Below, one piece after another: positions 12,657-61,660 of a stretch of 64,000 bases of DNA. Origin of the DNA: Rhodanobacteraceae bacterium. Lineage in GTDB: Bacteria > Pseudomonadota > Gammaproteobacteria > Xanthomonadales > Rhodanobacteraceae. The DNA is taken from NCBI GenBank assembly GCA_016790075.1, contig JAEUPP010000049.1, positions 62,001-126,000 on the forward strand, written 5' to 3'. The first letter of the stretch is position 1; each line of letters begins with the position of its first letter. Below the pieces are notes generated by a model. That model did not search any database. It was not told where the DNA came from and saw nothing but the letters and a program-made list of their open reading frames with translations. The translations under genes and the position numbers were made by a program.

Positions 12657-14708
12657 ATGTCGTTTCGTTTCCGCGCCCTAGCCGGCGCGGTCTGCATGCT
12701 GCTGTCAGGGCTTGCGGCGTCGGCCAAGGCCGACACCGCCGTATTCATCAACGAGCTTCATTACGACGACGCCAACACTGACTCCGGCGAGGCCATCGAA
12801 GTTGTCGGTCCGGTTGGTGCCAGCCTCGGGAATTGGCGTGTCGTGCTCTACAACGGCGGCAGCAACGGCGCGGCGGCTAGTTTCTATAGTGACCGGCCAC
12901 TGTCAGAGGCGACGGCAACGACCTGCGGTGGCAAACAGGTCCTGGTACTGAACTACCCGGTCGATGGGGTGCAGAACGGCAGCTTCGACGCGATGGCTTT
13001 GGTCGATGGTAGCGGCAGCGTCGTCCAGTTTCTCAGCTACGAGGGAGCAGCGACGGCGAGCAATGGTCCGGCCGCAGGCATGACCAGCGTCGACATCGGC
13101 GTAGCCGAAAGCGGCGCCACGCTGGAAGGTACGTCGCTGCAGCTCAGTGGCAGCGGTAGCGACTACGGCCAGTTCACCTGGCAGGGAAGTGCGACACAGA
13201 CCTTCGGCAACTGCAACAACAGCCAGAGTTTTGGCCCGCCGCTTGATATTCCGCCGACAGTGGCCTCGACCACGCCGGCGAACAACGCGACGGGACAGGC
13301 GAATACGGTCGATATTGGTGTCACGTTCAGCGAACCCGTCACGACAACGAACGCGTGGTTCACGCTGACGTGCACGCTCAGCGGAACCCATTCGGCCGTC
13401 ACAAGCGGCAGCGGCAATTCACGCACGCTGAATCCCGATGTCGATTTCGCCAGCGGCGAGACCTGCACCCTGACTGTCATCGCCGATCAGGTCAGCGACC
13501 AGGACGGCACCATCGACGAGATGGCGGCCGATTTCAGCATGAGCTTCAGCACCGCTGGCGACCTGCCGCCCAGCGTCGCGTCGACCACACCGGCCAACAA
13601 TGCGCATGGTTTTCCCGGTGCGGCAAATCTGGCCGTCACGTTCTCAGAGCCGGTCAGTGTTGACACGGGCTGGTTCACGCTGGGCTGCGCGAACACGGGG
13701 GCACATACGGCAGTGGCCAGCGGCGGCCCGGTGTCGTTCCAGCTCAATCCCGATGTGGATCTGGGACTTCTGGAACAGTGCACCTTGACCATAGTGGCCA
13801 ACAAGGTGCACGACCAGGACGGCACTCCGCAGGACATGAGTGCAAACGTTGCGGTTGTGTTCGAGACGGCGGCCTCGCTGAGCGACTATTACGCCGGTGT
13901 CGACACCTCCAGCGGTCCGGCGCTCAAGGCCTGGCTGCACAACCGCATCAAGGACCACACCTCGATTCATTACGGCGATACCTACACCGTGATGAACAAG
14001 GCGGACGAGGACCCCACCGATCCGAACAAGGTCTGGGACGTCTACAAGAATGAGTCGTATCCGAAGCAGACCAGCGGTGCGGCCAACTACAACCGCGAAC
14101 ACACCTGGCCCAAATCGCTGGGCTTCCCGAATGCGACGGACGCCGGCGGCCGGCCAAATCCGCCGCATACCGACGGCCATATGCTGTACGCCTCGCACGT
14201 GGGCTACAACTCAGACCGCGGCAACAGTCCCTATGGCCTGTGTCCGGGTTGCACCTCGCGGCCGACCACTGCGAATCACGGCGTCGGCGGCACCGGCGGG
14301 ACGAGCAGCAACTATTTCAACGCCAGCACGTTCCAGGTCTGGGACTTCCGCAAGGGCGATGCGGCGCGTGCCGTGCTCTACATGGTCGTGCGCTACCAGG
14401 GCGGCACGAACATCAGTGGTGCACCGGAGCCGCGCCTGGAGATCACCGATGACCGCAGCCTGATCGTTGGCAAGGATGCGACGACCTGCGGCAGCTGCAT
14501 TGCCTATATGGGCCTGAAGAGCGTGCTGCTCGACTGGAATGACCAGGATCCGCCGGACGACTACGAGCGCAACCGCAATGCCATGGTGCAGACCTTCCAG
14601 GGCAACCGCAATCCGTTCATCGACCATCCGGAATGGGCGCGCTGCGTGATCGACAATACGAATTGCCCGGTTGTTGTCGACGTGATCTTTGCCAACGGCT
14701 TCCAGTAA
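12657..14708 (+). CDS. Secreted endonuclease I family nuclease with lamin-tail-like and two Ig-like domains
   Basis: 683 residues. A Sec signal peptide ends near SAKADTA. A lamin-tail-like domain follows (FINELHYDDANTDSGEAIEVVG). Two Ig-like (Big_5 type) repeats each begin with a P-x-VASTTPANNA motif and share a CTL-TIVA-KV-DQDGT pattern. The C-terminal half is an endonuclease I domain with NREHTWPKS (His 482 predicted catalytic), DGHMLYAS and RGNSPYG. Such enzymes degrade DNA outside the cell, often for nutrient use. The last nine residues (DVIFANGFQ) nearly match the end of the metalloprotease encoded at 39176-40570. Export through the T2SS in this window is plausible. A GGGGG stretch lies about eight bases before the start. 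Confidence 0.85.
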   Translation: MSFRFRALAGAVCMLLSGLAASAKADTAVFINELHYDDANTDSGEAIEVVGPVGASLGNWRVVLYNGGSNGAAASFYSDRPLSEATATTCGGKQVLVLNYPVDGVQNGSFDAMALVDGSGSVVQFLSYEGAATASNGPAAGMTSVDIGVAESGATLEGTSLQLSGSGSDYGQFTWQGSATQTFGNCNNSQSFGPPLDIPPTVASTTPANNATGQANTVDIGVTFSEPVTTTNAWFTLTCTLSGTHSAVTSGSGNSRTLNPDVDFASGETCTLTVIADQVSDQDGTIDEMAADFSMSFSTAGDLPPSVASTTPANNAHGFPGAANLAVTFSEPVSVDTGWFTLGCANTGAHTAVASGGPVSFQLNPDVDLGLLEQCTLTIVANKVHDQDGTPQDMSANVAVVFETAASLSDYYAGVDTSSGPALKAWLHNRIKDHTSIHYGDTYTVMNKADEDPTDPNKVWDVYKNESYPKQTSGAANYNREHTWPKSLGFPNATDAGGRPNPPHTDGHMLYASHVGYNSDRGNSPYGLCPGCTSRPTTANHGVGGTGGTSSNYFNASTFQVWDFRKGDAARAVLYMVVRYQGGTNISGAPEPRLEITDDRSLIVGKDATTCGSCIAYMGLKSVLLDWNDQDPPDDYERNRNAMVQTFQGNRNPFIDHPEWARCVIDNTNCPVVVDVIFANGFQ

Positions 14709-39175: not shown

Positions 39176-40570
39176 CTACTGGAAGTTGCCGCGGAAGATC
39201 ACGTCATTGCCGCCGCTACCGCGCGTGATGCTGATGCGGAAGCCCTCCGCTGTCGCGGCATCGACGCTGACGGTAAAAGCGTTATTCGGCGCAGCCCAGG
39301 TTTCACCGACCTTGAACATCGAGCCCTCATTGTTCGCCACGTTGGCCGGTGGCGAGGTCGCGTCGACGCTCCAGGCGGGTTCGGAACGTGTCGTATTGAC
39401 CGAATGAATGATCACCGCATCGCCGGCGAGGCTGGCCTCGTACTTGCCGCCACGCTTGCGCGCCTCGATGGTGTAGTACTGCGTAGTTGGCGCGCCCGCA
39501 GCCCGCACTATGATCATCTGCAGGTTGGTGGATCCGATCAGGCTGGCGCGATCCAGCAGCAGGCCGGGATAACTGCCGTCGGTATCGATGGTGCGCTTGC
39601 GGGCTGCGTCGATGAAGACCAGCCTGTCGCGGGACCAGACACTGATGTGTTTGGCGATCCGGCCGTAGGTCGTATCGGTCGCGGCATTGCTCCAGGCGTC
39701 GCTCATGACGTCCCAGGGGTTGTCATAGGGGTCGCTGTCGCCGTCGGAATTGTTTGCGTGCGGCAGGCCGTAGGCATGACCCATTTCGTGACTGAGCGGG
39801 GCCGAGTTGTTGAACGACCACGGCGGGTTCCAGGTCGAGCTCCAGCATTTGTTGATGCCGTCCAGGGTTGCGCAGCGGCTGCCGCCCCAGGCGAAACCGT
39901 CGAGATCGCCGTTGAACATCATGTTGACACCTTGCAAGCCCCCGTTCGCGGCGAAATTTACCGATGCATTCGCGGCAGCAGTGCAGTCGTCAAACAGCTT
40001 GTTGAGGTTGGCGGAACCGCCGGCAGGCACATAGAACGAGCGCGGCTGCGGCAAGGTAAACCAGCCATAAGCGGCGCTGCCGACGAGGTTGATCTTGTTA
40101 TAGGAAACTTCGCGCCAGTAGTGGTCGAGCTCGCCCGGATTGTTGCCGTACTGGCCGGTGAAGAAACTTAGCGGCTTCTGCTCGGTTGCGATGTCGCTGA
40201 ATTTGCACAGTAGTGTCGCCCAGACCGTGGTTCCGGCGACATCGGGTTGAATGCTGCTGCGTTCGGTGTCGGCGGAGACGATGGCCTGCACCGCCAGACC
40301 TTGCGGCGTCGCCGGACCGCCGAGTTCCACTGCAACACGCTTGCCGGCCAGTGCGTAGACATCGCCGGCTCCGACGCGCGCCTGTGCGGGATCAAGCGCA
40401 TAACGCAGCCCGGCAGCATCGACCAGGGTCACGCGGAACTGGCTGCCCAGGCCTGCGGTCGGGTCCGAGTCGCCCCAGGTCAGTTCGAGGCGTCCCTCAA
40501 TTGGTGCGGCAAAAGCCTCGCTGCAGAACAGCAGCGCACAAAGGGACAGCAGACGGGAGGGCGACGACAT
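39176..40570 (-). CDS. Secreted zinc metalloprotease (metzincin-type)
   Basis: 464 residues from ATG 40570, chosen because it opens directly with a signal peptide (SRLLSLCALLFCSEAFA-AP); the GTG at 40618 adds unlikely residues. The zinc motif HEMGHAYGLPH (H261, E262, H265, H271) fits HExxHxxxxxH, with a Met-turn-like WDVMSD after it. An N-terminal Ig-like segment (residues about 25-115) precedes the protease domain. The protein ends in DVIFRGNFQ, nearly the same tail as the endonuclease at 12657. It is probably exported by the T2SS in this window; substrate unknown. Leftward, alone, with gph downstream. Confidence 0.85.
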   Translation of the reverse strand: MSSPSRLLSLCALLFCSEAFAAPIEGRLELTWGDSDPTAGLGSQFRVTLVDAAGLRYALDPAQARVGAGDVYALAGKRVAVELGGPATPQGLAVQAIVSADTERSSIQPDVAGTTVWATLLCKFSDIATEQKPLSFFTGQYGNNPGELDHYWREVSYNKINLVGSAAYGWFTLPQPRSFYVPAGGSANLNKLFDDCTAAANASVNFAANGGLQGVNMMFNGDLDGFAWGGSRCATLDGINKCWSSTWNPPWSFNNSAPLSHEMGHAYGLPHANNSDGDSDPYDNPWDVMSDAWSNAATDTTYGRIAKHISVWSRDRLVFIDAARKRTIDTDGSYPGLLLDRASLIGSTNLQMIIVRAAGAPTTQYYTIEARKRGGKYEASLAGDAVIIHSVNTTRSEPAWSVDATSPPANVANNEGSMFKVGETWAAPNNAFTVSVDAATAEGFRISITRGSGGNDVIFRGNFQ

Positions 40571-50020: not shown

Positions 50021-50670
50021 GACTCAGCCCGCTCAAGCGGTTCCTGCTCGCGGCCGTCGCCTGGCTGCCGGCCTGCTTTGCGCTCTGGTGGTGGGTATCC
50101 GGACTGACCGTGAAGTTTCCGGTCTGGCTCGCCGGTCTCACACTCAGCAGTTGCTGGCCTGAGCTTGTCGCCAGCGTAAGCCAGGGGTTCGACAACGGCG
50201 GCATGCCGACCATGGACGTGCTGACGCGGATTGCGGTCAGCGAAACTGGCCCCGACGGCAAGTTGGCGACCGGTTATCTCGAGGCGACCGTGCATCCGCT
50301 GTTGTACGGCTATGCATTGCCGCTGTTTTTCGGGCTTTGCCTGGCGACGCCACAGGACGACGAGCGGCGTTGGGGACAGCTTGCACTGGGCTGTGTGGCG
50401 ATCTGGCTGGCACAGGCCTTCGGTATCGCGGCCGATGCGCTCAAGGTACTCGCACTGGGGTCCGGCCCCGAGGCCACCGCCGCCGTGCAGGCGGCCGGGC
50501 TTAACCTGAATCTGATTGCCCTTTGTTACCAGTTCGGCTATCTGATCCTGCCGACCGTGGTACCGGCAGCACTGTGGCTTGCGCTCAACCGTCCGTTTAT
50601 TGAAACGTTGACCGGCCGCTCGTTTGGGGAACCCGGCGGCAGCAGCGCCGGTCGAAACGCCGCCTCCTAG
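50017..50670 (+). CDS. Hypothetical inner-membrane protein between purL and gspE
   Basis: 217 residues with three or four hydrophobic segments ([72 protein letters not shown]). Start ATG 50017 overlaps the purL stop (ATGA) and the stop lies ten bases before the gspE start. It resembles small proteins that some databases call exosortase H-associated membrane proteins, but I cannot confirm this and see no exosortase here. Its position suggests cotranscription with the T2SS genes; role unknown. Confidence 0.72.
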
Positions 50671-50680
50671 GAAAGAAGTC

Positions 50681-52420
50681 ATGTCTGCCGCCGAATTGCA
50701 GGAAGTCGAGCCCGCCCTCGACGCCGTCGCCGCGAACCTGGACGAGCAAATTTGCGCGTTCCTGGTCAAGAAAGGCCGCCTCAAGGAGGCTGACCTTGCG
50801 CGTGCGCGCCGCGTGCACGAGGAATCCGACAGCGAGTCGCTGGTCAACCTGCTGACCCGGCTCGGCCTGGTTTCCGAGCGCGACATGGCCGAGTCGATGG
50901 CTGAGCTGCTCAAGCTGCCGCTACTGGGGGCCAAGGATTTCCCCGAATCGCCGCCGCCGAACGTGGCACTGTCGGTGCGCTTCCTCAAACAGCACCATGT
51001 AGTGCCGGTCAGCGAAAACGAGACGGAGGTCGGCCTGCTCGTCGCCGATCCGGCCGAACCCTATCCGGCGCAGGCGGTGGAGCTGGCTACGGGACGGAAA
51101 GTGACCCTGCAGATCGGCCTGCGTTCGGAAATCGATGATCTGATCGAGCGCTACTACGGGCAGGGCCGTTCGGCCATGGGCACCATCGTCGAGACGCTGT
51201 CCGAAGATGCCACGCGTGGCGAGGACGATATCGAACACCTGCGCGATCTGGCGTCCGAAGCACCGGTGATACGCCTGGTCAATCTCATCGTGCAGCGCGC
51301 GGTCGAGCAGCGTGCGTCGGATATCCATATCGAGCCGTTCGAGAACCGCCTCAAGGTGCGCTACCGCATCGACGGCGTGCTGCACGAGGTCGAGTCACCA
51401 CCGGCGGCGTCGACTGCTGCGGTGATCTCGCGTGTCAAGATCATGGCCAAGCTCAACATCGCGGAACGCCGTCTGCCGCAGGACGGCCGCATCATGTTGC
51501 GTGTGCAGGGCAAGGAGCTCGACCTGCGCGTTTCGACTGTGCCGACGTCCTGGGGCGAGTCGGTAGTCATGCGTATTCTCGATCGCGAAAGCGTCGTGTT
51601 TGATTTCCATACGCTGGGGTTTACCGACGAATTCCTGCCGCAGTTCATGAAGGTGCTTGAGCTGCCGCACGGCATCATGCTCGTGACCGGCCCCACTGGC
51701 TCGGGCAAGACGACGACCCTGTATACCGCGCTGTCCCGGCTCAATCAGCCCGACGTCAAGATCATCACCGTCGAAGACCCGGTCGAATACCAGATCGAGG
51801 GGATCAACCAGATTCAGGCCAAGCCGCAGATCGGCCTGGACTTCAGCCATGCGTTGCGCTCCATCGTGCGTCAGGATCCCGACATCATCATGATCGGGGA
51901 AATGCGCGATCTCGAAACTTGCCGCATCGCGATTCAATCGGCGCTCACCGGACATCTGGTGCTGTCGACACTGCATACAAACAATGCGGCCGGCGGCATC
52001 ACGCGCTTGCTCGACATGGGCGTCGAAGACTATCTGCTGACCTCGACCGTGAATGGCATCCTTGCCCAGCGCCTCGTGCGCCGGCTCGACCGGGCGCATG
52101 CGGAAGCCTATACGCCGCTGCCTGAGGTCGTGCACGAGTTCAACCTCGACAAGCTCGGCGGGCCGGGGCCTCTGCAGCTCTACAAGCCGATGCCGAGTAC
52201 GAACAACCCCAGCGGTTACTACGGACGTACCACGATCATGGAATTCATGGTCATGTCCGATCCGCTGCGCCGTCTCGTCATGCAGCACGCCGGCATGGGT
52301 GAACTCGAACAGCAGGCGCGTAGTGAAGGTATGCGCACCATGTACGAGGACGGCCTGGTGAAATCCCTGGCCGGTGTCACGACGATAGAAGAAGTGCTGC
52401 GCGTGACCCAGGAAGGGTGA
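50681..52420 (+). CDS. gspE: Type II secretion ATPase GspE (XpsE-like)
   Basis: 579 residues from ATG 50681 with AGGA upstream. N-terminal GspE-N domain (residues about 15-170), then the hexameric ATPase: Walker A GPTGSGKTTT (337-346), Asp box, Walker B with DIIMIGEMRD (401-410) and His box STLHTNNAA. The C-terminal region that in most GspE carries a C-x2-C...C-x2-C zinc motif has no cysteines here (residues about 455-515). The enzyme powers pseudopilus assembly at the inner membrane. First gene of the operon in the xps order. Confidence 0.95.
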   Translation: MSAAELQEVEPALDAVAANLDEQICAFLVKKGRLKEADLARARRVHEESDSESLVNLLTRLGLVSERDMAESMAELLKLPLLGAKDFPESPPPNVALSVRFLKQHHVVPVSENETEVGLLVADPAEPYPAQAVELATGRKVTLQIGLRSEIDDLIERYYGQGRSAMGTIVETLSEDATRGEDDIEHLRDLASEAPVIRLVNLIVQRAVEQRASDIHIEPFENRLKVRYRIDGVLHEVESPPAASTAAVISRVKIMAKLNIAERRLPQDGRIMLRVQGKELDLRVSTVPTSWGESVVMRILDRESVVFDFHTLGFTDEFLPQFMKVLELPHGIMLVTGPTGSGKTTTLYTALSRLNQPDVKIITVEDPVEYQIEGINQIQAKPQIGLDFSHALRSIVRQDPDIIMIGEMRDLETCRIAIQSALTGHLVLSTLHTNNAAGGITRLLDMGVEDYLLTSTVNGILAQRLVRRLDRAHAEAYTPLPEVVHEFNLDKLGGPGPLQLYKPMPSTNNPSGYYGRTTIMEFMVMSDPLRRLVMQHAGMGELEQQARSEGMRTMYEDGLVKSLAGVTTIEEVLRVTQEG

Positions 52421-52463
52421 TCCCTTCTCCGCTCTCCAACCCGATCCTGCGCGCTGACCGCCA

Positions 52464-53681
52464 ATGCCCTTGTTCCGCTACAAAGCCGTAACCCCCGCCG
52501 GTGAAACGCTCGAAGGCCAGATGGAGGCTGCGTCGGCCGACGAAGTCGTCGCCAAACTGCAGGATGCGGGCAATATCCCGCTGGATGCGCGCGCTGCCGA
52601 TGCGAACGAGGGCAGCGCCCTGCTCAGTCTGCTGGCACGGCGTTCGAGTTTCAGCGCCGCCCAGGTCGTGCAATTCACGCAGCAGCTTGCAACCATGCTC
52701 GGCGCCGGGCAGCCGCTGGACCGGGCCCTGCAGATCGTGCTTGACCTGCCCAGCGACGAAAAGGCGCGCCGCATGCTTGAGCGTGTGCGCGATACCGTGC
52801 GCGGCGGCGCGCCTCTGTCGGATGCGCTTGAAGCCGAGCACGGCGTGTTTTCGCGCCTCTACGTCAACATGGTCCGGGCTGGTGAAGCGGGGGGCTCGCT
52901 GGATGAAACCCTGCGCCGCCTCGCCGAATACCTGGAACGTACGCGCGAACTGCGCGGCAATGTGATCAACGCGATGATCTATCCCGCGTTCCTGATCGGC
53001 ATGGTGTTCGCGTCGCTGATGATTCTGCTGGTCTATGTCGTGCCGCAGTTTGTGCCTATGTTCAACGACATGGGGGTGGAATTGCCGCTCATTACGCAGG
53101 CCGTGTTCGGCGCCGGCATGGTGCTGCAGAAATTCTGGTGGTTGCTGCTGGTCGCTGCGGTGCTGGGTGTTGCCTGGCTGCGCAAACAGTATACGCAGCC
53201 GGAAACGCGGCTCGCGCTTGATGCGCGCCTGCTGCAGGTGAAGGTCGCCGGCGAGGTGATCCTCAAGCTCGAAACCGCGCGCCTTACGCGGACGCTGGGA
53301 ACTTTGCTCAAGAACGGCGTTCCTTTGCTGGGTGCGATGACGATTGCACGCAATGTCATGAGCAATGCGGCACTCGCCGAAGCAGTAGGCGCGGCGGCGG
53401 AAGAAGTGAAGCGCGGCAATGGCCTCGGTTATGCACTGAGCCAGAGCAAGCGGTTTCCGAAGCTGGCATTGCAGATGGTCACGGTCGGTGAGGAGTCGGG
53501 CGAGCTCGATGCCATGCTGCTCAAGACCGCCGATACATTCGATCTGGAAGTCAAGAACACGCTGGACCGGTTGTTGGCCGCGCTGGTTCCAGTCGTCACC
53601 ATTGCAATCACTGTGCTGGTAGCGATGATCATGATGGCGATCATCCTGCCGATCATGGACTTGGCCGGTTCTGTCCAATAA
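52464..53681 (+). CDS. gspF: Type II secretion inner-membrane platform protein GspF
   Basis: 405 residues. N-terminal MPLFRYKAVTPAGETLEG signature, two T2SSF repeats (QFTQQLATMLGAGQPLDRAL...; RLTRTLGTLLKNGVPLLGAM...) and three membrane helices (near residues 170, 220 and 385-400). It links GspE to the pseudopilus. 43 bases after gspE and 13 bases before gspG. Confidence 0.95.
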   Translation: MPLFRYKAVTPAGETLEGQMEAASADEVVAKLQDAGNIPLDARAADANEGSALLSLLARRSSFSAAQVVQFTQQLATMLGAGQPLDRALQIVLDLPSDEKARRMLERVRDTVRGGAPLSDALEAEHGVFSRLYVNMVRAGEAGGSLDETLRRLAEYLERTRELRGNVINAMIYPAFLIGMVFASLMILLVYVVPQFVPMFNDMGVELPLITQAVFGAGMVLQKFWWLLLVAAVLGVAWLRKQYTQPETRLALDARLLQVKVAGEVILKLETARLTRTLGTLLKNGVPLLGAMTIARNVMSNAALAEAVGAAAEEVKRGNGLGYALSQSKRFPKLALQMVTVGEESGELDAMLLKTADTFDLEVKNTLDRLLAALVPVVTIAITVLVAMIMMAIILPIMDLAGSVQ

Positions 53682-53694
53682 ATGGGAGAATGAT

Positions 53695-54126
53695 ATGAAG
53701 TACACAATTGGCTATCGTGGTGCGGTCCGCGCGCAGTCCGGTTTCAGTTTGCTGGAGATGCTTGCCGTGATCGTGCTGATAGGCATCGTCGCCGGCATCG
53801 TGGTCAATCGTGTCGGTGCCAATGTCGACAATGGAAAGCACAAGGCGGGCAAGGCACAGCTCGCCAAGCTCGGCATGAGCGTCGAAGCCTATGCACTCGA
53901 CAATGGCGGACCTCCGGACAAGCTTGAGGATCTCGTCACGAAGCCGGGCAATGCACCAAACTGGAAAACAGCCTACGCCAAGGACTCGGACCTCAAAGAT
54001 CCATTCGGTCACGCCTTCGGCTACAAGAAACCGGGGGAACACGGTGATTTCGACATCGTGTTCTACGGCAAGGACGGCAAGGCTGGCGGCGAAGGCTTCA
54101 GCGCCGACATCGGCAACTGGCAGTAG
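53695..54126 (+). CDS. gspG: Type II secretion major pseudopilin GspG
   Basis: 143 residues. Prepilin motif QSG-FSLLEML near residue 16, cleaved after Gly and methylated on Phe, then a hydrophobic helix (AVIVLIGIVAGIVVN) and the C-terminal calcium-loop region (DGKAGGEGFSADIGNW) typical of major pseudopilins. The sequence KDPFGHAFGYKKPGEHGDFDIVFYGKDG is the usual GspG core. Main subunit of the pseudopilus. Confidence 0.95.
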   Translation: MKYTIGYRGAVRAQSGFSLLEMLAVIVLIGIVAGIVVNRVGANVDNGKHKAGKAQLAKLGMSVEAYALDNGGPPDKLEDLVTKPGNAPNWKTAYAKDSDLKDPFGHAFGYKKPGEHGDFDIVFYGKDGKAGGEGFSADIGNWQ

Positions 54127-54132
54127 TGTGTG

Positions 54133-54696
54133 ATGCCTAGGGTGGATGCCGGATCGCGCCGGAGCTATTCCGCGCGCCGTGTGCGCCTGAACCGTGGGTT
54201 CGCGCACGGCGCTGCTGCGCACCGCATCCGCCGGCCCGCCAGGCAGCCTGCGCGGCAGCGTGGATTCAGCTTGCTTGAGCTTATTGCGGTCATCGTGCTG
54301 GTTGCGATTGCAGTCACCGTTGCCTCGGTGTCCATCACCAATAGTCTCGGCAGCGCGAAGATCCAGGCGGCCAGCCGCGATCTGGTCGCTGCGCTGCGCT
54401 ATACGCGCGGCCAGGCCATCGTCAAAGGCGAACAGAAAACGCTGGATGTTGATCTCGAAGCCATGAGTTACAAGGCGCCGGACAAGGCGGAGGTCAAGTT
54501 TCCCGACAAGATCGAAGTCAAGCTGCTGACCGCGCAGAACGAGCTGATTCACGACAAGGCCGGCCGCATCCGTTTCTATCCCGACGGCAGTTCCACCGGT
54601 GGTCATGTTTCCATCATTGCTGGTGCGCGCGAGTGGCGGGTCAATGTTGGCTGGCTGACCGGCGAAGTCGATCTTGAGGAGCTCAAGGAGCGATGA
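54133..54696 (+). CDS. gspH: Type II secretion minor pseudopilin GspH
   Basis: 187 residues from ATG 54133; a GTG directly before it (54130) is also possible. The prepilin site RQRG-FSLLELIAVIV falls after an unusually long, arginine-rich leader of about 43 residues; a shorter leader could use a later start, but none has a good ribosome binding site. The hydrophobic helix is followed by the GspH C-terminal region. ATGA overlap with gspI. Confidence 0.85.
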   Translation: MPRVDAGSRRSYSARRVRLNRGFAHGAAAHRIRRPARQPARQRGFSLLELIAVIVLVAIAVTVASVSITNSLGSAKIQAASRDLVAALRYTRGQAIVKGEQKTLDVDLEAMSYKAPDKAEVKFPDKIEVKLLTAQNELIHDKAGRIRFYPDGSSTGGHVSIIAGAREWRVNVGWLTGEVDLEELKER

Positions 54697-55199
54697 GCCG
54701 CACGCTTGTCCGTCATCGCCCGCGGCAATGGCCGGCGCGGCAGCGCGGTTTCAGCCTGATCGAGCTCGTCGCCGCCTTTGTCGTGTTCGCGCTGGGTTTC
54801 GCTGTACTGATGGGCATCCTGTCGGCGTCGATCCGCAACACGCGGCTGGCGGCGGAGTACACCCAGGCGGCGCTCTGGGCGCAGTCGCGGCTCGATGTCG
54901 TCGGCATAGACGAAAAGCTTGAGGCGGGGCGCAAGAGCGGCCGCTTCGATGATCAATACCGCTGGGAGCTGGATATTCAGAAGTACGAGCCGCCACCAGC
55001 CGCAAATGCGGCACCTCAGCCCGAAGGCTTCCAGAACATCGAGCTGTTCCGAGTCGACCTCGAAGTATTCTGGGGCGAGCGGCGCAATCCGCGCAGTGCG
55101 CATTTCGTGTCGCTGCGTTCAGCGAATGCCGAAGTCGGCAGCGTGCGCACGGATGGCTCCGATGGCGCAGTCCAGCCACCGGGTCAGGGCGCCAAATGA
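54693..55199 (+). CDS. gspI: Type II secretion minor pseudopilin GspI
   Basis: 168 residues. Prepilin motif RQRG-FSLIELVAAFVVFALGFAVL after a short leader, then a globular region. Minor pseudopilins I, J and K form the pseudopilus tip. Order and ATGA overlaps with gspH and gspJ support the call; the sequence itself is less conserved than in GspG. Confidence 0.85.
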   Translation: MSRTLVRHRPRQWPARQRGFSLIELVAAFVVFALGFAVLMGILSASIRNTRLAAEYTQAALWAQSRLDVVGIDEKLEAGRKSGRFDDQYRWELDIQKYEPPPAANAAPQPEGFQNIELFRVDLEVFWGERRNPRSAHFVSLRSANAEVGSVRTDGSDGAVQPPGQGAK

Positions 55200-55918
55200 T
55201 GCGCGCTCCCTATGGTTCGCGGGGCTTCAGCCTGCTGGAGGTGCTGCTTGCCATCACCTTGCTGGCGATCCTGCTTGCCGGGGCGATGAGTGGCATTCGT
55301 GCAGCGACCCGGGCCATGCATGCGGGCGAGCAGAATATCGAGCGCACAAATCGGCTCCGCGTCGCACAGGAATTCGTTCGGCGCGAACTCAGCCGCAGTC
55401 TGCCGCTGGCGTTTGGACAGGAACATGGTAGCGGCGTCAACTTCGTGTTCCAGGGCGAAAAGGACTTTCTGCGCTTTGTCGCCCCCATGCCCGGGCATCT
55501 GAGTCGCGGCGGTCCGTATGTGCAGACGCTGGAGCTGGCCCGTGGCCGCAACGGGCTGCAGCTGGTGTTCACGCACAACATGCTCAATGGTTTTGATCTC
55601 GACAAGCTCAAGCCGGACGACGGCCTGCCAGTGATGCTGCTCGACGGCATACGGCGCGGGCGTTTCGAGTACCGCAAGTTCGACGATCAGAACAAGCTGG
55701 AAGACTGGAAGGATGAATGGGAAAACCCGTCGATGCTGCCGGTCATGGTGCGCATCGACCTGGAAATGACGCCGGAGTCCGGCCTGGTCTGGCCGACCAT
55801 GGAAATTCCGCTGATCCTCGACACCAGTGGCGGCGTGCGCCTGTTCCAGCAGCGCATGCCGCGGCCAGGAGCCGAGCCGCCGCAGCCCTCAGATAGCGCC
55901 GCGACGGAGAAACAGTGA
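55196..55918 (+). CDS. gspJ: Type II secretion minor pseudopilin GspJ
   Basis: 240 residues. ATGATG offers two starts, 55196 and 55199. Prepilin motif YGSRG-FSLLEVLLAITLLAILLAG, then a large globular domain with the GspJ patterns (RLRVAQEFVRRELSRSLP; FVAPMPGHLSRGGPYV; LQLVFTHN). Member of the tip complex with GspI and GspK. The C-terminal tail is Pro/Gln-rich. Confidence 0.88.
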   Translation: MMRAPYGSRGFSLLEVLLAITLLAILLAGAMSGIRAATRAMHAGEQNIERTNRLRVAQEFVRRELSRSLPLAFGQEHGSGVNFVFQGEKDFLRFVAPMPGHLSRGGPYVQTLELARGRNGLQLVFTHNMLNGFDLDKLKPDDGLPVMLLDGIRRGRFEYRKFDDQNKLEDWKDEWENPSMLPVMVRIDLEMTPESGLVWPTMEIPLILDTSGGVRLFQQRMPRPGAEPPQPSDSAATEKQ

Positions 55919-56808
55919 TGCCGGTGACTGGCCAGCGCGGTGTCGCGTTCATCCTCGTGCTCTGGGTCATCGCACTGATGAGCATCCTGCTCGGCAGTTT
56001 CGCGGTGATCGCACGCACCGAGAACCTGCAGGCGCGGCATCTGTTCGATTCGACGGCCGCGCGTTATCTGGCGGAAGCAGGCCTTCATCGCGCGGTGTTT
56101 GAACTGCGCAACTCCGATCCATTCACGCGTTGGGTTGCCGACGGCCGGCCGTATGAATTCGAGTTCGACGGCGCCAAGATCGAGCTGCGCCTGACCGATG
56201 ACAGCGGCAAGGTGGATATCAACGTCGCCGATGCCCTGATGCTCAAGGCGCTGTTCCAGTCCGCCGGCATTGAGGCGCTGCGCGCTGAGGAGCTGGCAGA
56301 CGCCATCATCGACTGGCGCGATCCGGACGACCTGGCCAGCGTGCATGGGGCGGAAGAGGCCGAGTACAAGTCGGCCGATTTGAAGTACTCGCCACGGAAC
56401 GCGCCGTTTGAAACGGTGTCTGAGATCCAGCAGGTGCTAGGGATGGACTACGACACCTATCACCAGATCGAAAAGGCCATCACGCTCTATTCCGGCCGCA
56501 GTCAACCCAGTCCCGCCTATGCGCCGCTCGAAGTTCTGCGCGCGATGCCGGGAATGACCGAGGAACAAGCCCAAATGTTGCTGACTCAGCGCCAGGCGGT
56601 GCCGCCGGGCATGCCGTACAACATCACGATGCCCGACGGAACCCCCATCATGGCGGAGGGTGGGGGGCTCACGTATAGTATCGAGTCCCGCGCCACACTC
56701 TCGAACGGCGCCAGCACTCGGCTGGATGCCACCATACGGCTGGGCGGACAAGGCGTAGGCGGCAGGCCGTTCGTGGTCCTGCGCTGGCGCGACGGCGAAG
56801 ATCAGTAA
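55918..56808 (+). CDS. gspK: Type II secretion minor pseudopilin GspK
   Basis: 296 residues from ATG 55918 (TGATG overlap with gspJ). QRG-VAFILVLWVIALMSILLGSF is the GspK prepilin start, which lacks Glu at +5 as usual for GspK. The large helical domain has VNVADALMLKALF-like and DAIIDWRDPDD segments, then EIQQVLGMDYDTY, all typical of T2SSK. Sits at the pseudopilus tip and controls its length. Confidence 0.92.
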   Translation: MPVTGQRGVAFILVLWVIALMSILLGSFAVIARTENLQARHLFDSTAARYLAEAGLHRAVFELRNSDPFTRWVADGRPYEFEFDGAKIELRLTDDSGKVDINVADALMLKALFQSAGIEALRAEELADAIIDWRDPDDLASVHGAEEAEYKSADLKYSPRNAPFETVSEIQQVLGMDYDTYHQIEKAITLYSGRSQPSPAYAPLEVLRAMPGMTEEQAQMLLTQRQAVPPGMPYNITMPDGTPIMAEGGGLTYSIESRATLSNGASTRLDATIRLGGQGVGGRPFVVLRWRDGEDQ

Positions 56809-58070
56809 TGGCTATCAAAGACGTGCTTGAACCTCAGCTCGTCCGCTTGCGGGCGCGCTATGCCAAGACACCGCTGCCGCGTTTCTTCGCGTGGTGGGGC
56901 GGCGAGCTGCTGTCCTTTCTGCCCGCATCCTGGCGGGCAGCACTGGCGGAGGGGCGTGAGTCCCTGCTGCTGCATGTGGCGGGTCGACAACTGGTGCTGC
57001 GCCGCGAGGCTGCGCGGGGAGCCACCGGGTTTGGCGAGATTGATCTCAGCCAGGATGTCGATGTTCAGCGCGGCGATTTTCAGCGTCTGCGGGCGCGTAT
57101 CGACGAACCGCAACTGCGCCAGTTCTTCTGTGTGCCGACGACGCGCGTACTGCGACGTTCGCTGAGCCTGCCGGCTGCGGCCGAAGAGAATCTGCGTCAG
57201 GTGCTCAGTTTCGAGATGGACCGGCAGACTCCGTTCAAGGCCGACCAGGTCTATTTTGATCATGTAGTGCGTGGTCGCGATGCGGCCGGGCGGCAGCTGC
57301 AGGTTGATCTGGTCGTCATGCCGCGCGCCGCGTTCGACGAGGAAATCGCGGCAGTCGCCCAGCTTGGCATTCCGCTGGATGGGGTTGACTGCTGGCTCGA
57401 CGAGGCGAATGGTACGCGCGCGGGCGTGAACCTGTTGCCGTCCGAGCGGCGCGCCCGGCGTAGCAACCAGCGCCTGTGGATCAACCTCGGACTGGTGATG
57501 CTGGCGACGGTGCTGGCGTTGGGTGTCATGGCGAGAACCGTGACCAACCGCCAGGTCGCACTCGAGAACATGACGGCAGAAGTCCAGAAGTCGCAGCTGG
57601 AAGCCAAGCAGGTTGCGGCACTGCGCAAGACTCTGGAAGAAACCATCGAGTCGGCCAACTTCCTGACCCAGAAAAAGCGCACCGTGGTCCCGGCGATCGA
57701 ACTGCTCAAGGATCTGACGGAGCGACTGCCGGACAGCACCTATCTCGAACGCCTCAACGTGACTGAGGATGGCCGCGTCGAGCTGCAAGGGCTGAGCGAC
57801 CGCTCGGAAAACCTGATCGCGGAATTGCAGAAATCCAAGGTGCTGGCCGATCCCGCATTTCAGGGCGTGGTGCAGCCCGACCCGCGGGTGAAGAAAGACC
57901 GCTTCAATCTGGTGGCCCAGCTCAAGCCGCGCGAGCTGGCATCGCCCAAGCCTGCAGCCGCGGACGCAGAAGACGCCAAGAGTGTGAGCGCCAAAGCGGC
58001 GCCCAAGGACGCTGCTGCGGGCGAAAGCAAGGGGGGAGACGCAAATGCGCCTGCTGCCACAAAAGAATAA
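56808..58070 (+). CDS. gspL: Type II secretion protein GspL (PilN-like domain)
   Basis: 420 residues. A cytoplasmic actin-like domain (SQDVDVQRGDFQRL; FEMDRQTPFKADQVYFDH), one membrane helix (LWINLGLVMLATVLALGVMA), then a periplasmic PilN/ferredoxin-like domain with a coiled coil. The C-terminus after about residue 385 is Ala/Lys-rich and probably disordered. It recruits GspE to the membrane with GspM. The start overlaps the gspK stop (TAATG); the 3' end overlaps gspM by 26 bases. Confidence 0.9.
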   Translation: MAIKDVLEPQLVRLRARYAKTPLPRFFAWWGGELLSFLPASWRAALAEGRESLLLHVAGRQLVLRREAARGATGFGEIDLSQDVDVQRGDFQRLRARIDEPQLRQFFCVPTTRVLRRSLSLPAAAEENLRQVLSFEMDRQTPFKADQVYFDHVVRGRDAAGRQLQVDLVVMPRAAFDEEIAAVAQLGIPLDGVDCWLDEANGTRAGVNLLPSERRARRSNQRLWINLGLVMLATVLALGVMARTVTNRQVALENMTAEVQKSQLEAKQVAALRKTLEETIESANFLTQKKRTVVPAIELLKDLTERLPDSTYLERLNVTEDGRVELQGLSDRSENLIAELQKSKVLADPAFQGVVQPDPRVKKDRFNLVAQLKPRELASPKPAAADAEDAKSVSAKAAPKDAAAGESKGGDANAPAATKE

Positions 58071-58659
58071 TGGCCGCTTCATGGCTGTCGTGCTGACCCT
58101 GATCGTGCTGCTGCTGGGCTATCTGCTCGGCGTGCACTGGTGGTTCGTCGCACCGCATCTGGATATTGCGTCGCAAATGGGCGATCTGCGCGAACAGCAG
58201 CAACGCTTTCAGGAGACCAGCAAGCAGCGCGCTGAGATCGACAAACGCCTGAGCGCCGTGCGCGACTTTGAGCAAAGCAATCAGGCCTTTCTCGCCCAGA
58301 CCGACGCAGCCGGCGCAGCGGCTGACCTGATTCAGCGCATGAAGCAGGCCGTGACCGAACAGGGGGGCGACCAGAACCGGTGCCAGGTGCTCACCCACCA
58401 GCAGCTCACCGGCGGCAAGCCCGAGCTCTACGAGAAAGTAACGGTCCAGGTACGCATGCGTTGCGACCTGGAACCGCTGTCCTCGATCATCTACCAGCTC
58501 GAGCGCGACAAGCCGTTCCTGTTCGTCGAGCAGCTCATGATCTACAAGCAGAACTACGGCTATGTGGCGCCTGGCCAGAAGCAGCCACAGCAGAGCGCGC
58601 TCGATATCCGCTTCAACCTGTCGGGCTACATGCGCAAGCGCGGAGCGGAGAAGGCATGA
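58045..58659 (+). CDS. gspM: Type II secretion protein GspM
   Basis: 204 residues. One N-terminal membrane helix (AVVLTLIVLLLGYLLGVHWWF), a coiled coil, then a small alpha/beta domain (TVQVRMRCDLEPLSSIIYQLERDKPFLFVEQLMIYKQN) typical of GspM type II. Overlaps gspL by 26 bases; GGGGGGAG precedes its ATG. Stabilises GspL. Confidence 0.87.
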   Translation: MRLLPQKNNGRFMAVVLTLIVLLLGYLLGVHWWFVAPHLDIASQMGDLREQQQRFQETSKQRAEIDKRLSAVRDFEQSNQAFLAQTDAAGAAADLIQRMKQAVTEQGGDQNRCQVLTHQQLTGGKPELYEKVTVQVRMRCDLEPLSSIIYQLERDKPFLFVEQLMIYKQNYGYVAPGQKQPQQSALDIRFNLSGYMRKRGAEKA

Positions 58660-59366
58660 ACGCGCGCACCGCTAGACTGATCACGCTGAGCCTGGCCGGG
58701 GTCTGCGGCACCATGGGATTGGCCGGCGTGCTGGCCTGGATGGGAGCTGGGCGCGGCTATGGCTGGCTGCCGGAAGTCGAGGCGCCGCCGGTCACCGGCG
58801 TCGGTCGCATTGACACCGAAGCTGTCGTCATGCCGCCGGATTCCGAGTTCGCTGAAGTGCGCCAGCGGCCGATCTTCAACGACGACCGCAAGCCGACGCC
58901 GATCGTCGACGACAAGCCGATCGAAACTGCACCGACGGCGCCGCTGAATATCACGCTGACCGGCATCGTGATGACGCCGGACTTCAAGCTTGCGATGGTG
59001 CGCGATAACGCCAAGAACGAAGGCGTGTCGCTGCGCATCGGCATGCCACTGCCCGGTGAACAGCAGGGCTGGACGCTGGCGGAAATTCGTGCGCGCAGCG
59101 TGGTGTTCAAGAATCCGCAGGACGAAGCCTCGGAAGTTGAACTTGAGGTTGCACCTGGACTCTCAGTCCCGCCAAGCGCGCGCGCTGTGCCACCGCCACC
59201 ACCACCACCTGGCGCCGTGCCGGTGCCCGCTCCGCCAGCGGCCAGCGACCCTGGGCAGCCGCCGCCGGATCGTGCCGCCGAACTGCAACGCCGAATCGAA
59301 GAGCGCCGCCGCGAAATGCGCGAGCAGGCCGAGAAGCTGCGCGAGCAGCAGGAACAAGTCAAATGA
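58656..59366 (+). CDS. gspN: Type II secretion protein GspN/GspC-like (XpsN-type)
   Basis: 236 residues. N-terminal membrane helix (LITLSLAGVCGTMGLAGVLAWM), then an HR-like domain (RQRPIFNDDRKP; LNITLTGIVMTPDFKLAMV; GMPLPGEQQGWTLAEI) which in GspC/XpsN contacts the secretin, then a proline-rich spacer (residues about 185-210) and a C-terminal charged coiled coil. Its position before gspD and the absence of a separate gspC fit the Xanthomonas arrangement, where XpsN takes the role of GspC. ATGA overlaps on both sides. Confidence 0.85.
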   Translation: MNARTARLITLSLAGVCGTMGLAGVLAWMGAGRGYGWLPEVEAPPVTGVGRIDTEAVVMPPDSEFAEVRQRPIFNDDRKPTPIVDDKPIETAPTAPLNITLTGIVMTPDFKLAMVRDNAKNEGVSLRIGMPLPGEQQGWTLAEIRARSVVFKNPQDEASEVELEVAPGLSVPPSARAVPPPPPPPGAVPVPAPPAASDPGQPPPDRAAELQRRIEERRREMREQAEKLREQQEQVK

Positions 59367-61660
59367 ACGGAGTGCCACCAGTGCGTCTACGTCTGTTTCC
59401 CCTTTGCCTGGCGGCGCTGCTGGTCGCGCTGGGCGGCTGCTCGGCGACTCCGGTACGCCCTGCACATGACGGCGATGGCTCGGCCGTTGCGGCTACGGCC
59501 GAGGCAGCGGCGGCGAAGTCGCCAGGTGAAAAGGCTGCGCTAGACGACGGCCCGATCTCGCTCGGCGGCAAGAAGGACCCTGCTGCGCAGGCGCCCAAGC
59601 CTGAGATCGAGAAAGGGACGGCGACGTTCATCAACGAGGCTGCCGCTCGCGCACCGGTTCCGGCAACACCCGATGGCGATGGCCAGCTCACGTTCAACTT
59701 CGAGAACCAGCCTATCCAGGCGGTTGCGAAGGCGATCCTCGGTGATCTGCTGCAGCTCAACTACGTGATTGCGCCGGGTGTGCAGGGCAACGTGAGTTTC
59801 TCCACGTCCAAGCCGATCAAGTCCGATCAGGCCATGTCCATCCTGGAGATGTTGCTCTCCTGGACCAACAACTCGCTGGTCTATAGCGAAGGCCGTTACA
59901 CCGTGTTGCCGACCAAGGATGCGCTGCAGGGCAAACTTGTGCCGAGGATTGCACCGCCTAGCACCTCAAGGGGCTACGAGGTTCGCGTGTTCCCGCTGCG
60001 CTTCGTCTCGCCCAAGGAGATGGAAAAGCTGCTCAAGCCTTATGCAAAGGCCGACGCCTTCGTTTCAGTGGACACAGCGCGCAGCATGCTAGTGCTGGCC
60101 GGCACCGCCACGGAGCTCGCCAATTATCAGCGCACGATTGATACCTTCGATGTCGACTGGCTCAAGGGCATGTCGATCGGTGTGTATGCGGTGGTGAATG
60201 TCGAAGTCGCCAAGATCATGCCGGAACTCGACAAGCTGTTCGGCGCCACCGGCGAATCGCCGATGGCAGGCATGTTCCGTTTCGTGCCGATCGAGCGCAC
60301 CAATTCGGTCATCGTCATCACGCCGAACCCGGATTATCTGGCGCAGGCCGAGGAGTGGCTGCGCCGCCTCGATCAGGGCGGCAGCGAAAACGGTACACAG
60401 CTCTATGTGTACGATGTGAAAAACGTAAAATCTGTCGACCTCGCCGACCGCCTCAACGAGGTGTTCACCGGTCAGCGCAGCGGCGGCGGCAGTTCCTCCC
60501 GCCGTACGAGCTCGCGTGGCGGTGTGGCGCCGGGTCTGCAGTCGGTCGAAGTGCGCGGAACCAACGACAACAGCCGCCGTGCCGAGGCAACACGCGAAAA
60601 GCAGAATGCCGCGGCGGGCGGCGGTACAGGTGGCGCAGCGTCGTTCACGATCGGCGACGACGAGGCTGAGGTGCGCATCACTGCGGTCGAGGAGAACAAT
60701 CAGATCCTCGTCATGGCCACGCAGAGCCAGTGGGGCATTATCCAGAGCGCGATCAAGCGCCTCGATGTCGAGCCGCTGCAGGTGCAGATCGAAACCAAGA
60801 TTCTCGAAGTGTCGCTGGTCGGCGATCTGGAATATGGCGTGCGCTGGTTCCTTGAGGGCCTGATCGGTACGAGTAACCAGGGAACCAACCGCTTTACCCA
60901 GTCGCAGCCCGGCAATCAGCAGCGCGGTCTGTTCGGTGCCACCAACACACCGGGATCGAGCAACTCGAATGTGTTCTTCTCGTTCATTAACAGCGAGATC
61001 GAGGTTGCCATCAATGCGCTGCAGACGAGCTCGAACACCAAGACGCTGTCGGCGCCATCGCTGGTCGTGCTCAATAACAAGGAGGCGCGCATCAATGTCG
61101 GCGACCAGATCCCGGTAGTGCAGAACTACCTCAGCGGCATCAATACGAGCAACAACGTAAACACCGGTACAAATTACGGTTCGGTGCAATTTCGTGATGT
61201 GGGCGTGATTCTCACGGTGACGCCGCGGGTAAATCCGGGTGGTCTCGTCTATATGGAAGTGTCGCAAGAGGTCAGCAAGCCCGGTGCGCAGGATGTGACC
61301 GGCAACTACAGCGTCGCCAAGCGCGAAATCGAAACCGAGATCGCCGTGCAGAGCGGGCAGACCGTGCTGCTCGGCGGTCTTATTGGTGAATCGGAAGTGG
61401 CCGGCAAGGACGGTGTGCCTGGCCTGAGCCGCATTCCGGTCATCGGCAACCTGTTCGGCCACACCAAGAAGAACCGTACGCGTACGGAGCTTATCGTCCT
61501 GATCACGCCGCGTGTGGTCGGTAGTGCCGTGGATGCGCAGAGCATCACCGAGGAATACCAGCGCCGCTTCGAGTCGTTGCCGCCGATCAAAGGGGCTGGC
61601 GGCGATACGCTGGAGAGCGCGTTCGGTGACAAGGGCGACAACAAGAAGAAGCAAAAGTAA
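59363..61660 (+). CDS. gspD: Type II secretion outer-membrane secretin GspD
   Basis: 765 residues. Lipoprotein-type signal (LAALLVALGGC), an N0 and three N domains (FENQPIQAVAKAILGDLLQLNYVI; YEVRVFPLRFVSPKEMEKLLKPY; LYVYDVKNVKSVDLADRLNEVF), a Gly/Ser/Arg-rich insert near residues 370-395, and the C-terminal secretin domain (VQIETKILEVSLVGDLEYG; VLNNKEARINVGDQIPVV; FRDVGVILTVTPRVNPGGLV; VLLGGLIGESE). Forms the multimeric channel. A lipobox on the secretin itself is unusual for Gsp types that use a separate pilotin; related XpsD is a lipoprotein. Confidence 0.95.
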   Translation: MNGVPPVRLRLFPLCLAALLVALGGCSATPVRPAHDGDGSAVAATAEAAAAKSPGEKAALDDGPISLGGKKDPAAQAPKPEIEKGTATFINEAAARAPVPATPDGDGQLTFNFENQPIQAVAKAILGDLLQLNYVIAPGVQGNVSFSTSKPIKSDQAMSILEMLLSWTNNSLVYSEGRYTVLPTKDALQGKLVPRIAPPSTSRGYEVRVFPLRFVSPKEMEKLLKPYAKADAFVSVDTARSMLVLAGTATELANYQRTIDTFDVDWLKGMSIGVYAVVNVEVAKIMPELDKLFGATGESPMAGMFRFVPIERTNSVIVITPNPDYLAQAEEWLRRLDQGGSENGTQLYVYDVKNVKSVDLADRLNEVFTGQRSGGGSSSRRTSSRGGVAPGLQSVEVRGTNDNSRRAEATREKQNAAAGGGTGGAASFTIGDDEAEVRITAVEENNQILVMATQSQWGIIQSAIKRLDVEPLQVQIETKILEVSLVGDLEYGVRWFLEGLIGTSNQGTNRFTQSQPGNQQRGLFGATNTPGSSNSNVFFSFINSEIEVAINALQTSSNTKTLSAPSLVVLNNKEARINVGDQIPVVQNYLSGINTSNNVNTGTNYGSVQFRDVGVILTVTPRVNPGGLVYMEVSQEVSKPGAQDVTGNYSVAKREIETEIAVQSGQTVLLGGLIGESEVAGKDGVPGLSRIPVIGNLFGHTKKNRTRTELIVLITPRVVGSAVDAQSITEEYQRRFESLPPIKGAGGDTLESAFGDKGDNKKKQK

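Follow-up and report, generated by a model that had tools for sequence, protein, structure and literature searches.

A nine-residue C-terminal tail on unrelated exported proteins of Lysobacterales, a candidate address tag for a second T2SS

Why should a secreted nuclease and a secreted metalloprotease end in nearly the same nine residues? The question arises in a 64,000-nucleotide stretch of a Rhodanobacteraceae genome (the window; C42:62001-126000 of a 5.62 Mb assembly in 83 contigs), where an Endonuclease I-type nuclease with Big_5 repeats and a catalytic domain near its C-terminal end (12663-14708, forward strand) finishes in DVIFANGFQ (14679-14705, abutting the stop codon at 14706-14708) and an M6-type metalloprotease (39176-40570, reverse strand) finishes in DVIFRGNFQ (39179-39205, abutting the stop codon at 39176-39178). 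Both tails had been pointed out in an earlier reading of the letters alone (the sequence-only reading) and were confirmed at these positions. The two proteins are otherwise unrelated, as that reading had held: Pfam and NCBIfam matched the first to Endonuclease_1 and Big_5, and the second is an M6-type match (3e-15, below that model's cut-off). By a home-made rule, the endonuclease, whose likely start is MSFRFRAL, has a signal peptide ending in ...GLAASA ahead of KADT, and that of the metalloprotease ends in ...SEAFA ahead of APIE.

The source genome contains 42 matches to the pattern TNTTYNNNNNNNNNTTYSARTRR (xF-xxx-F[EQ]-stop), compared with 4 for the reversed pattern, and all 42 terminate distinct open frames at a stop codon. 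Of 1128 ORFs in the window and in stretches around tags from ten genomes, 114 terminate in the motif with 0 to 10 residues after it, against 0.5 expected, a value derived from the motif's internal rate in stretches that were chosen around tags. Across 1449 ORFs the core motif was found 70 times at the C-terminus, whereas 200 residue-permuted motifs gave a median of 0 and a maximum of 2. A chance origin of the tag is ruled out by the reversed-pattern, internal-rate and permuted-motif controls, although a few source-genome matches, L030 (149 aa) among them, lack a clear signal peptide and may be fortuitous. Within the same 1449 ORFs the core motif was also seen 7 times internally and once N-terminally, and at L085, L104, L108 and L118 it lies within long ORFs, seemingly between domains.

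Alignment of 98 tails flush with the stop codon gave a nine-residue consensus of approximately D-x-[ILV]-F-x-[DN]-G-F-[EQ], with information content low through position -10 and high from -9 to -1. The search pattern itself fixes F at -6 and -2 and E or Q at -1, and -7 and -3 in part, but leaves D at -9 free; D was found there in 69 of the 98 tails, and the [DN] and G positions were occupied as in the consensus in 76 each. The tag stands a few residues after the folded domain, for instance soon past GAYE in beta-helix proteins, and reading of the tails revealed no membrane helix and no basic cluster in the tag region. Tags ending in E or Q are mostly flush with the stop codon (86 of 99 in ten genomes plus the window), while D-form tags are mostly extended, with extra residues after the motif in 13 of 15; the tags seen in genome G037 also bear extra residues. 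When a pattern without the stop codon was applied to two genomes, 29 of 31 distinct motif instances lay at most 14 residues from the C-terminus (16/16 in G110 and 13/15 in G037), these being the first 15 places in each genome and not a random draw. Q closes 19 of the 42 tags of the source genome but 3 of 56 flush tags from nine other genomes, a lineage-specific shift of the tag besides the one in G037 described below. A looser motif also occurs directly after putative signal peptides, i.e., at the mature N-terminus, in five ORFs (L077 ORF10, PIFASGFE; L133 ORF6, HLFGGDFE; L089 ORF0, VVFRHGFE; L093 ORF3, LIFGSSFE; and L098 ORF5, LVFHQGFE); if these are real, the tag is able to act at either end of a protein.

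The sequence-only reading had proposed as a test that the pattern, if a tag, should be commoner in exported than in cytosolic proteins, and the enrichment found here favours a tag. By the home-made rule at its widest setting, a signal peptide was predicted for 36 of the 42 tagged ORFs of the source genome versus 52 of 144 other ORFs; when the start window was set to its narrowest and the threshold left unchanged, the counts were 26/42 and 27/144. Across ten genomes, where start codons are uncertain and a looser rule took any M, V or L as a start in tagged and control ORFs alike, signal peptides were found in 105 of 119 tagged ORFs versus 304 of 779 others, and signal peptides with no further hydrophobic stretches in 91/119 versus 219/779. 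Two tagged ORFs of the source genome have Tat-like starts (RRDFLK and RRRGFLL). Two features of T2SS substrates, a Sec or Tat signal peptide and a T2SS in the host, were both found here. The cargo is diverse: Pfam and NCBIfam scans covered 41 of the 42 tagged proteins (a 2655-residue open ORF was excluded) and matched 53 and 50 families, respectively, with no Pfam family in more than 4 members and the commonest NCBIfam family in 4. The Pfam matches listed (25 of the 53 families) include beta-helix, chitinase, M14, S8, reprolysin, nuclease and sortilin-like proteins, among others. Among the NCBIfam matches are choice-of-anchor Q, B, D and X proteins, rhombosortase- or myxosortase-dependent M36 proteases and a T9SS-dependent M6-like protease, so named in that collection; it appears that some protein families that have sorting tails elsewhere bear this tail here. 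The number of tagged ORFs, their diversity and their export bias support the earlier proposal that the tail reflects a shared function.

We looked for a sorting partner encoded beside the tags and rejected this idea, as the untagged families common to most tag neighbourhoods are regulators and not a sorting machine. Ser/Thr kinase genes lie near tags in 9 of 10 genomes and ECF-type sigma factor genes in 6 of 10 (both named from reading the sequences), counted in stretches picked around tags and without control stretches; such neighbourhoods include L043, L048, L089, L098, L099, L110, L112, L118, L125 and L127, among others. The kinase and sigma factor pair may control the making of tagged proteins.

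The sequence-only reading had also suggested that secreted proteins of the same bacterial order have similar ends. This holds for part of the order: at least one match to a stricter pattern was found in 109 of 299 genomes of the order Lysobacterales, with up to 61 in one genome and 0 to 2 for reversed controls, whereas none of 226 sampled genomes from elsewhere in the class had more than 3 (controls, 0 to 2). The highest count in a single genome was obtained with a broad motif in G110 (130 hits versus 1 control). In named genomes, one exact-codon form of the tag was found in 12 stretches from 8 assemblies, all Lysobacterales by title (Lysobacterales, Lysobacteraceae, Rhodanobacteraceae, Dokdonella fugitiva and Tahibacter caeni), and 5 of these 12 could be placed at the end of an ORF by crude ORF calling. 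Among the matches listed in a search of the open-licence literature, no description of the tag was found. As judged from the genomes sampled, the tag is patchy within Lysobacterales and near background elsewhere in the class; by these comparative tests it is real, order-specific in the sampled genomes and functional.

A patchy tag suggests looking for a patchy partner. Of the options raised by the sequence-only reading (sorting, anchoring or T2SS recognition), T2SS recognition is the best supported, through co-occurrence with a second T2SS. A T2SS as such does not explain the tag, being too common (GspD is present in 79 of 80 genomes); only the second kind, which we call kind A, tracks it. The window itself carries the other kind, kind B, as a cluster from gspE to gspD (50624-61660, forward strand), whose GspC (58656-59366) matches T2SSC weakly and PDZ not at all. 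For the kind-A gspE, gspD and gspC of this genome, the proposed readers of the tag, one has to look beyond the window (G000:C63, about 86.3-90.9 kb). With a profile built from 16 kind-A GspDs, 112 of 299 genomes matched at E < 1e-190, 8 had contig-edge fragments that were put in kind A by judgement, 19 were intermediate and 160 had a weak or no match, the kinds being assigned by profile score and not by tree. The intermediate group consists of 19 genomes of family f2, which we take to be Xcs-like; all are tag-free, and they were classed as not kind A. According to gene calls in 21 kind-A stretches, gspC (16/21), gspD (20/21) and gspE (18/21) adjoin, and a second GspG was found in 19 of 19 kind-A genomes tested but in only 1 of 17 others (G075); because these genes adjoin and the second GspG tracks kind A, we regard kind A as a separate T2SS. 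Of the same 21 stretches, 8 have thioredoxin and RNA helicase genes as judged by simple motifs, and only 3 have a tagged gene, which counts against kind A as the reader. Five kind-A GspC proteins (GspC being T2SSC, PF11356) gave both HR and PDZ matches, as did two more, and by profile kind-A GspC resembles OutC, EpsC and PulC, whose structures are known. Matches to PDZ only, which are probably DegP-like proteases, occur in genomes with and without kind A.

When strict-tag counts were combined with the GspD profile calls across the 299 genomes of the order, 73 of the 78 with four or more strict tags (tag-rich) proved to have kind-A GspD, as did 47 of 221 tag-poor ones, counts that ignore kinship; counting the 19 intermediate f2 genomes as kind A would raise the tag-poor share from 47 to 66 of 221. 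The association recurs within families: kind A was found in 11/11 tag-rich versus 3/65 tag-poor genomes in family f1, 2/2 versus 0/76 in f2 and 3/4 versus 4/35 in f8. Most of the tag-poor genomes with kind A (36 of 47) belong to family f10, and a broader motif without the stop codon gave 3 to 91 hits in the 19 of those 36 that were searched, compared with 0 to 6 for the reversed control, the weakest being G089 with 3 versus 1; most tag-poor f10 genomes are therefore tagged in a variant form. With the same broader motif, 30 f1 and f2 genomes classed as lacking kind A gave 0 to 3 hits versus 0 to 4 in the control.

There are exceptions on both sides. Five tag-rich genomes have no kind-A GspD (G123, G048, G059, G182 and G097). 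G123 has a kind-A GspC, and its GspD is probably missing from the assembly; G048, G059 and G182 are 90, 77 and 81% complete, respectively. G097 is 98% complete and has 8 strict tags (17 hits versus 1 control by a loose flush pattern; tagged loci L086 to L093), and in profile searches its kind-A GspD, GspC and GspG were all not found, while a kind-B T2SS is present. In family f8, ten genomes without kind A gave 0 to 19 broader-motif hits compared with 0 to 2 for each control (51 versus 13 when summed), the highest being G063 with 19 versus 2, but with 25 versus 13 by the loose flush pattern; this family may hold tags without kind A. In G097, G063 and f8, either another reader is at work or kind A was recently lost. 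Conversely, kind A occurs with tags at about control level in G230, G257, G275, G082, G127, G156 and G176, three of which are less than 90% complete, and with few tags in G006, G064, G143 and G167. In G257 and G275, kind-A GspC was matched in pieces only. Across the genomes compared, the link between the tag and the second, PDZ-type T2SS is strong but correlative. Independent co-losses of tag and kind A may number only three to five, and another co-lost gene could therefore be the reader.

A single conserved enzyme shows the same presence and absence. The endonuclease gave 58 matches in 43 of 80 genomes, and tags were read at 30 of these loci. Of 22 orthologues from kind-A or tag-rich genomes, 19 have the tag or a near variant of it (1, a copy in G030, is without, and 2 are ambiguous), whereas orthologues from genomes without kind A have it in 0 of 8, with 7 ending right after the catalytic domain and 1 ambiguous; two of these eight genomes (G249 and G061) belong to the intermediate GspD group, and the ambiguous loci are L152, L154 and L157. 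When 25 orthologues were aligned (the 30 loci minus five excluded for length), the tag fell into separate columns, which are filled in 17 sequences and empty in 8.

A residue that switched in most listed tags of one genome also fits a single reader. In G037, Arg replaces the consensus Gly in 49 of 50 listed motifs, compared with 2 of 100 in G110 (counted by eye, with a pattern that admits only Gly or Arg at that position). The endonuclease of G009, which is of the same genus as G037, has DRFE. Unless a reader common to them all has changed, it is difficult to see why dozens of unrelated G037 proteins should share one substitution. When two GspC proteins from the Arg genus were compared with 14 others, some residues differed, and no clear partner residue was found among them.

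Taken together, the tag is very probably a targeting signal of some kind. The best explanation, which on comparative grounds we would put at an even chance, is that the kind-A T2SS reads it as a linear address tag. The nine C-terminal residues, in some genomes together with a few more, would serve as the address: the cargo would pass the inner membrane by Sec or Tat and then fold, the tag would stay exposed as a short tail past the last folded domain, and a periplasmic receptor of the kind-A T2SS would bind this tail and let the protein into the secretin. We infer that kind A reads the tag and does so through GspC; the likeliest contact would be its periplasmic part, HR plus PDZ, with the GspD N-domains or the pseudopilus tip as alternatives. 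According to one study, secretion of VesB requires the PDZ domain of EpsC, and PelI is said to have a disordered loop that binds the PDZ domain of OutC (PMC12369372). Because some tags have residues after the motif, a PDZ grip on the free carboxylate is unlikely to account for all of them. The proposal in its fullest form, that a transplantable nine-residue linear signal is read by the GspC PDZ region, sorts from tens to more than 100 unrelated folded proteins per genome and co-evolves in sequence with its reader (as in the G037 exchange of Arg for Gly), is a tentative one and, on balance, doubtful.

The main rival is a surface receptor that was lost together with kind A. Proteins would exit by a T2SS, and the tag would then bind a separate outer-membrane or surface receptor that holds them on the cell, much as GlyGly-CTERM or T9SS C-terminal domains do but with no membrane helix, the receptor being gained and lost along with kind A. 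The tagged proteins that match NCBIfam families anchored elsewhere fit this explanation, which also permits tags without kind A, as in G097, and a report on Wenzhouxiangella would be compatible with it if that strain's proteases are tagged (PMC7691419). It would, however, make the link with kind A indirect, and a candidate receptor was not found in the tag neighbourhoods, where the shared untagged families are the regulators described above; we consider surface retention unlikely, if less so than the explanations that follow. In one of these, the tail would be a sorting signal like those of CTERM/sortase systems, cleaved off the C-terminus and replaced by an anchor. The C-terminal position and the anchor-type protein families are in keeping with it, but the motif comes with neither a membrane helix nor a basic cluster, and cleavage at the looser motifs behind putative signal peptides in five ORFs would not anchor the protein, which leaves this explanation very improbable. 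DegP-like proteases read exposed protein ends, and the tail could instead be a periplasmic quality-control or stability element read by a tail-specific or PDZ protease and not a transport signal. The PDZ-only matches provide candidates for such a protease in genomes with and without kind A; as these proteases are also present in tag-free genomes, the patchy distribution of the tag would go unexplained, and this explanation is every bit as improbable as cleavage. Least probable of all, and already disfavoured, is that the tail was inherited with a shared C-terminal module or merely caps the structure, with no receptor involved: some beta-helix proteins do end alike (GAYE or similar, then the tag), but information rises sharply at -9 only, the tagged proteins span 53 Pfam families, one residue is switched in most of the listed G037 tags, and the tag is cleanly present or absent behind the endonuclease.

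A known CTERM signal (PEP-CTERM, GlyGly-CTERM or MYXO-CTERM) was rejected on anatomy, since in these a transmembrane helix and a basic cluster come after the motif, whereas this motif ends at the stop codon or within a few residues of it; moreover, no curated model of the tag was present among the NCBIfam matches listed for the 41 tagged proteins (25 of 50 families). Some GlyGly-CTERM carriers, such as VesB, are reportedly T2SS substrates. The GlyGly-CTERM/rhombosortase system likewise has a C-terminal signal common to many exported proteins (PMC3237569, in part), but the tag lacks the Gly-rich motif, the membrane helix and the basic end and is only about nine residues long. The MYXO-CTERM/myxosortase system, as far as the accessible text of PMC11980579 describes it, likewise has dozens of tagged proteins per genome, in one lineage and in surface-related families; its signal is tripartite with an invariant cysteine, whereas the tag is short and has neither a membrane helix nor an invariant cysteine.

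The T9SS C-terminal domain is also a C-terminal export signal on folded, Sec-exported proteins, but there, in Bacteroidota, it folds into a domain of about 80 residues, in contrast to nine residues in Lysobacterales. Known determinants of T2SS substrates include an Ig fold in VesB together with the EpsC PDZ domain (PMC12369372) and composite loops in Pel3 (PMC7949064); they share with our case exported folded proteins, exposed flexible peptides and the GspC PDZ domain, but they are structural and differ between substrates, whereas here one linear tag is common to dozens. Of recent papers, one states that no conserved T2SS signal has been identified (PMC11981180) and another that no linear or conserved one is known (PMC12369372).

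Cargo choice by the T2SS is a long-standing question, and a shared tag would make it testable by one deletion and one fusion. It would also allow secretomes to be predicted from sequence in many uncultured Lysobacterales and could provide protein production with a short export tag. Should something other than a T2SS be the reader, a sorting tag that has no membrane helix and reaches up to 130 motif hits per genome would still demand an explanation.
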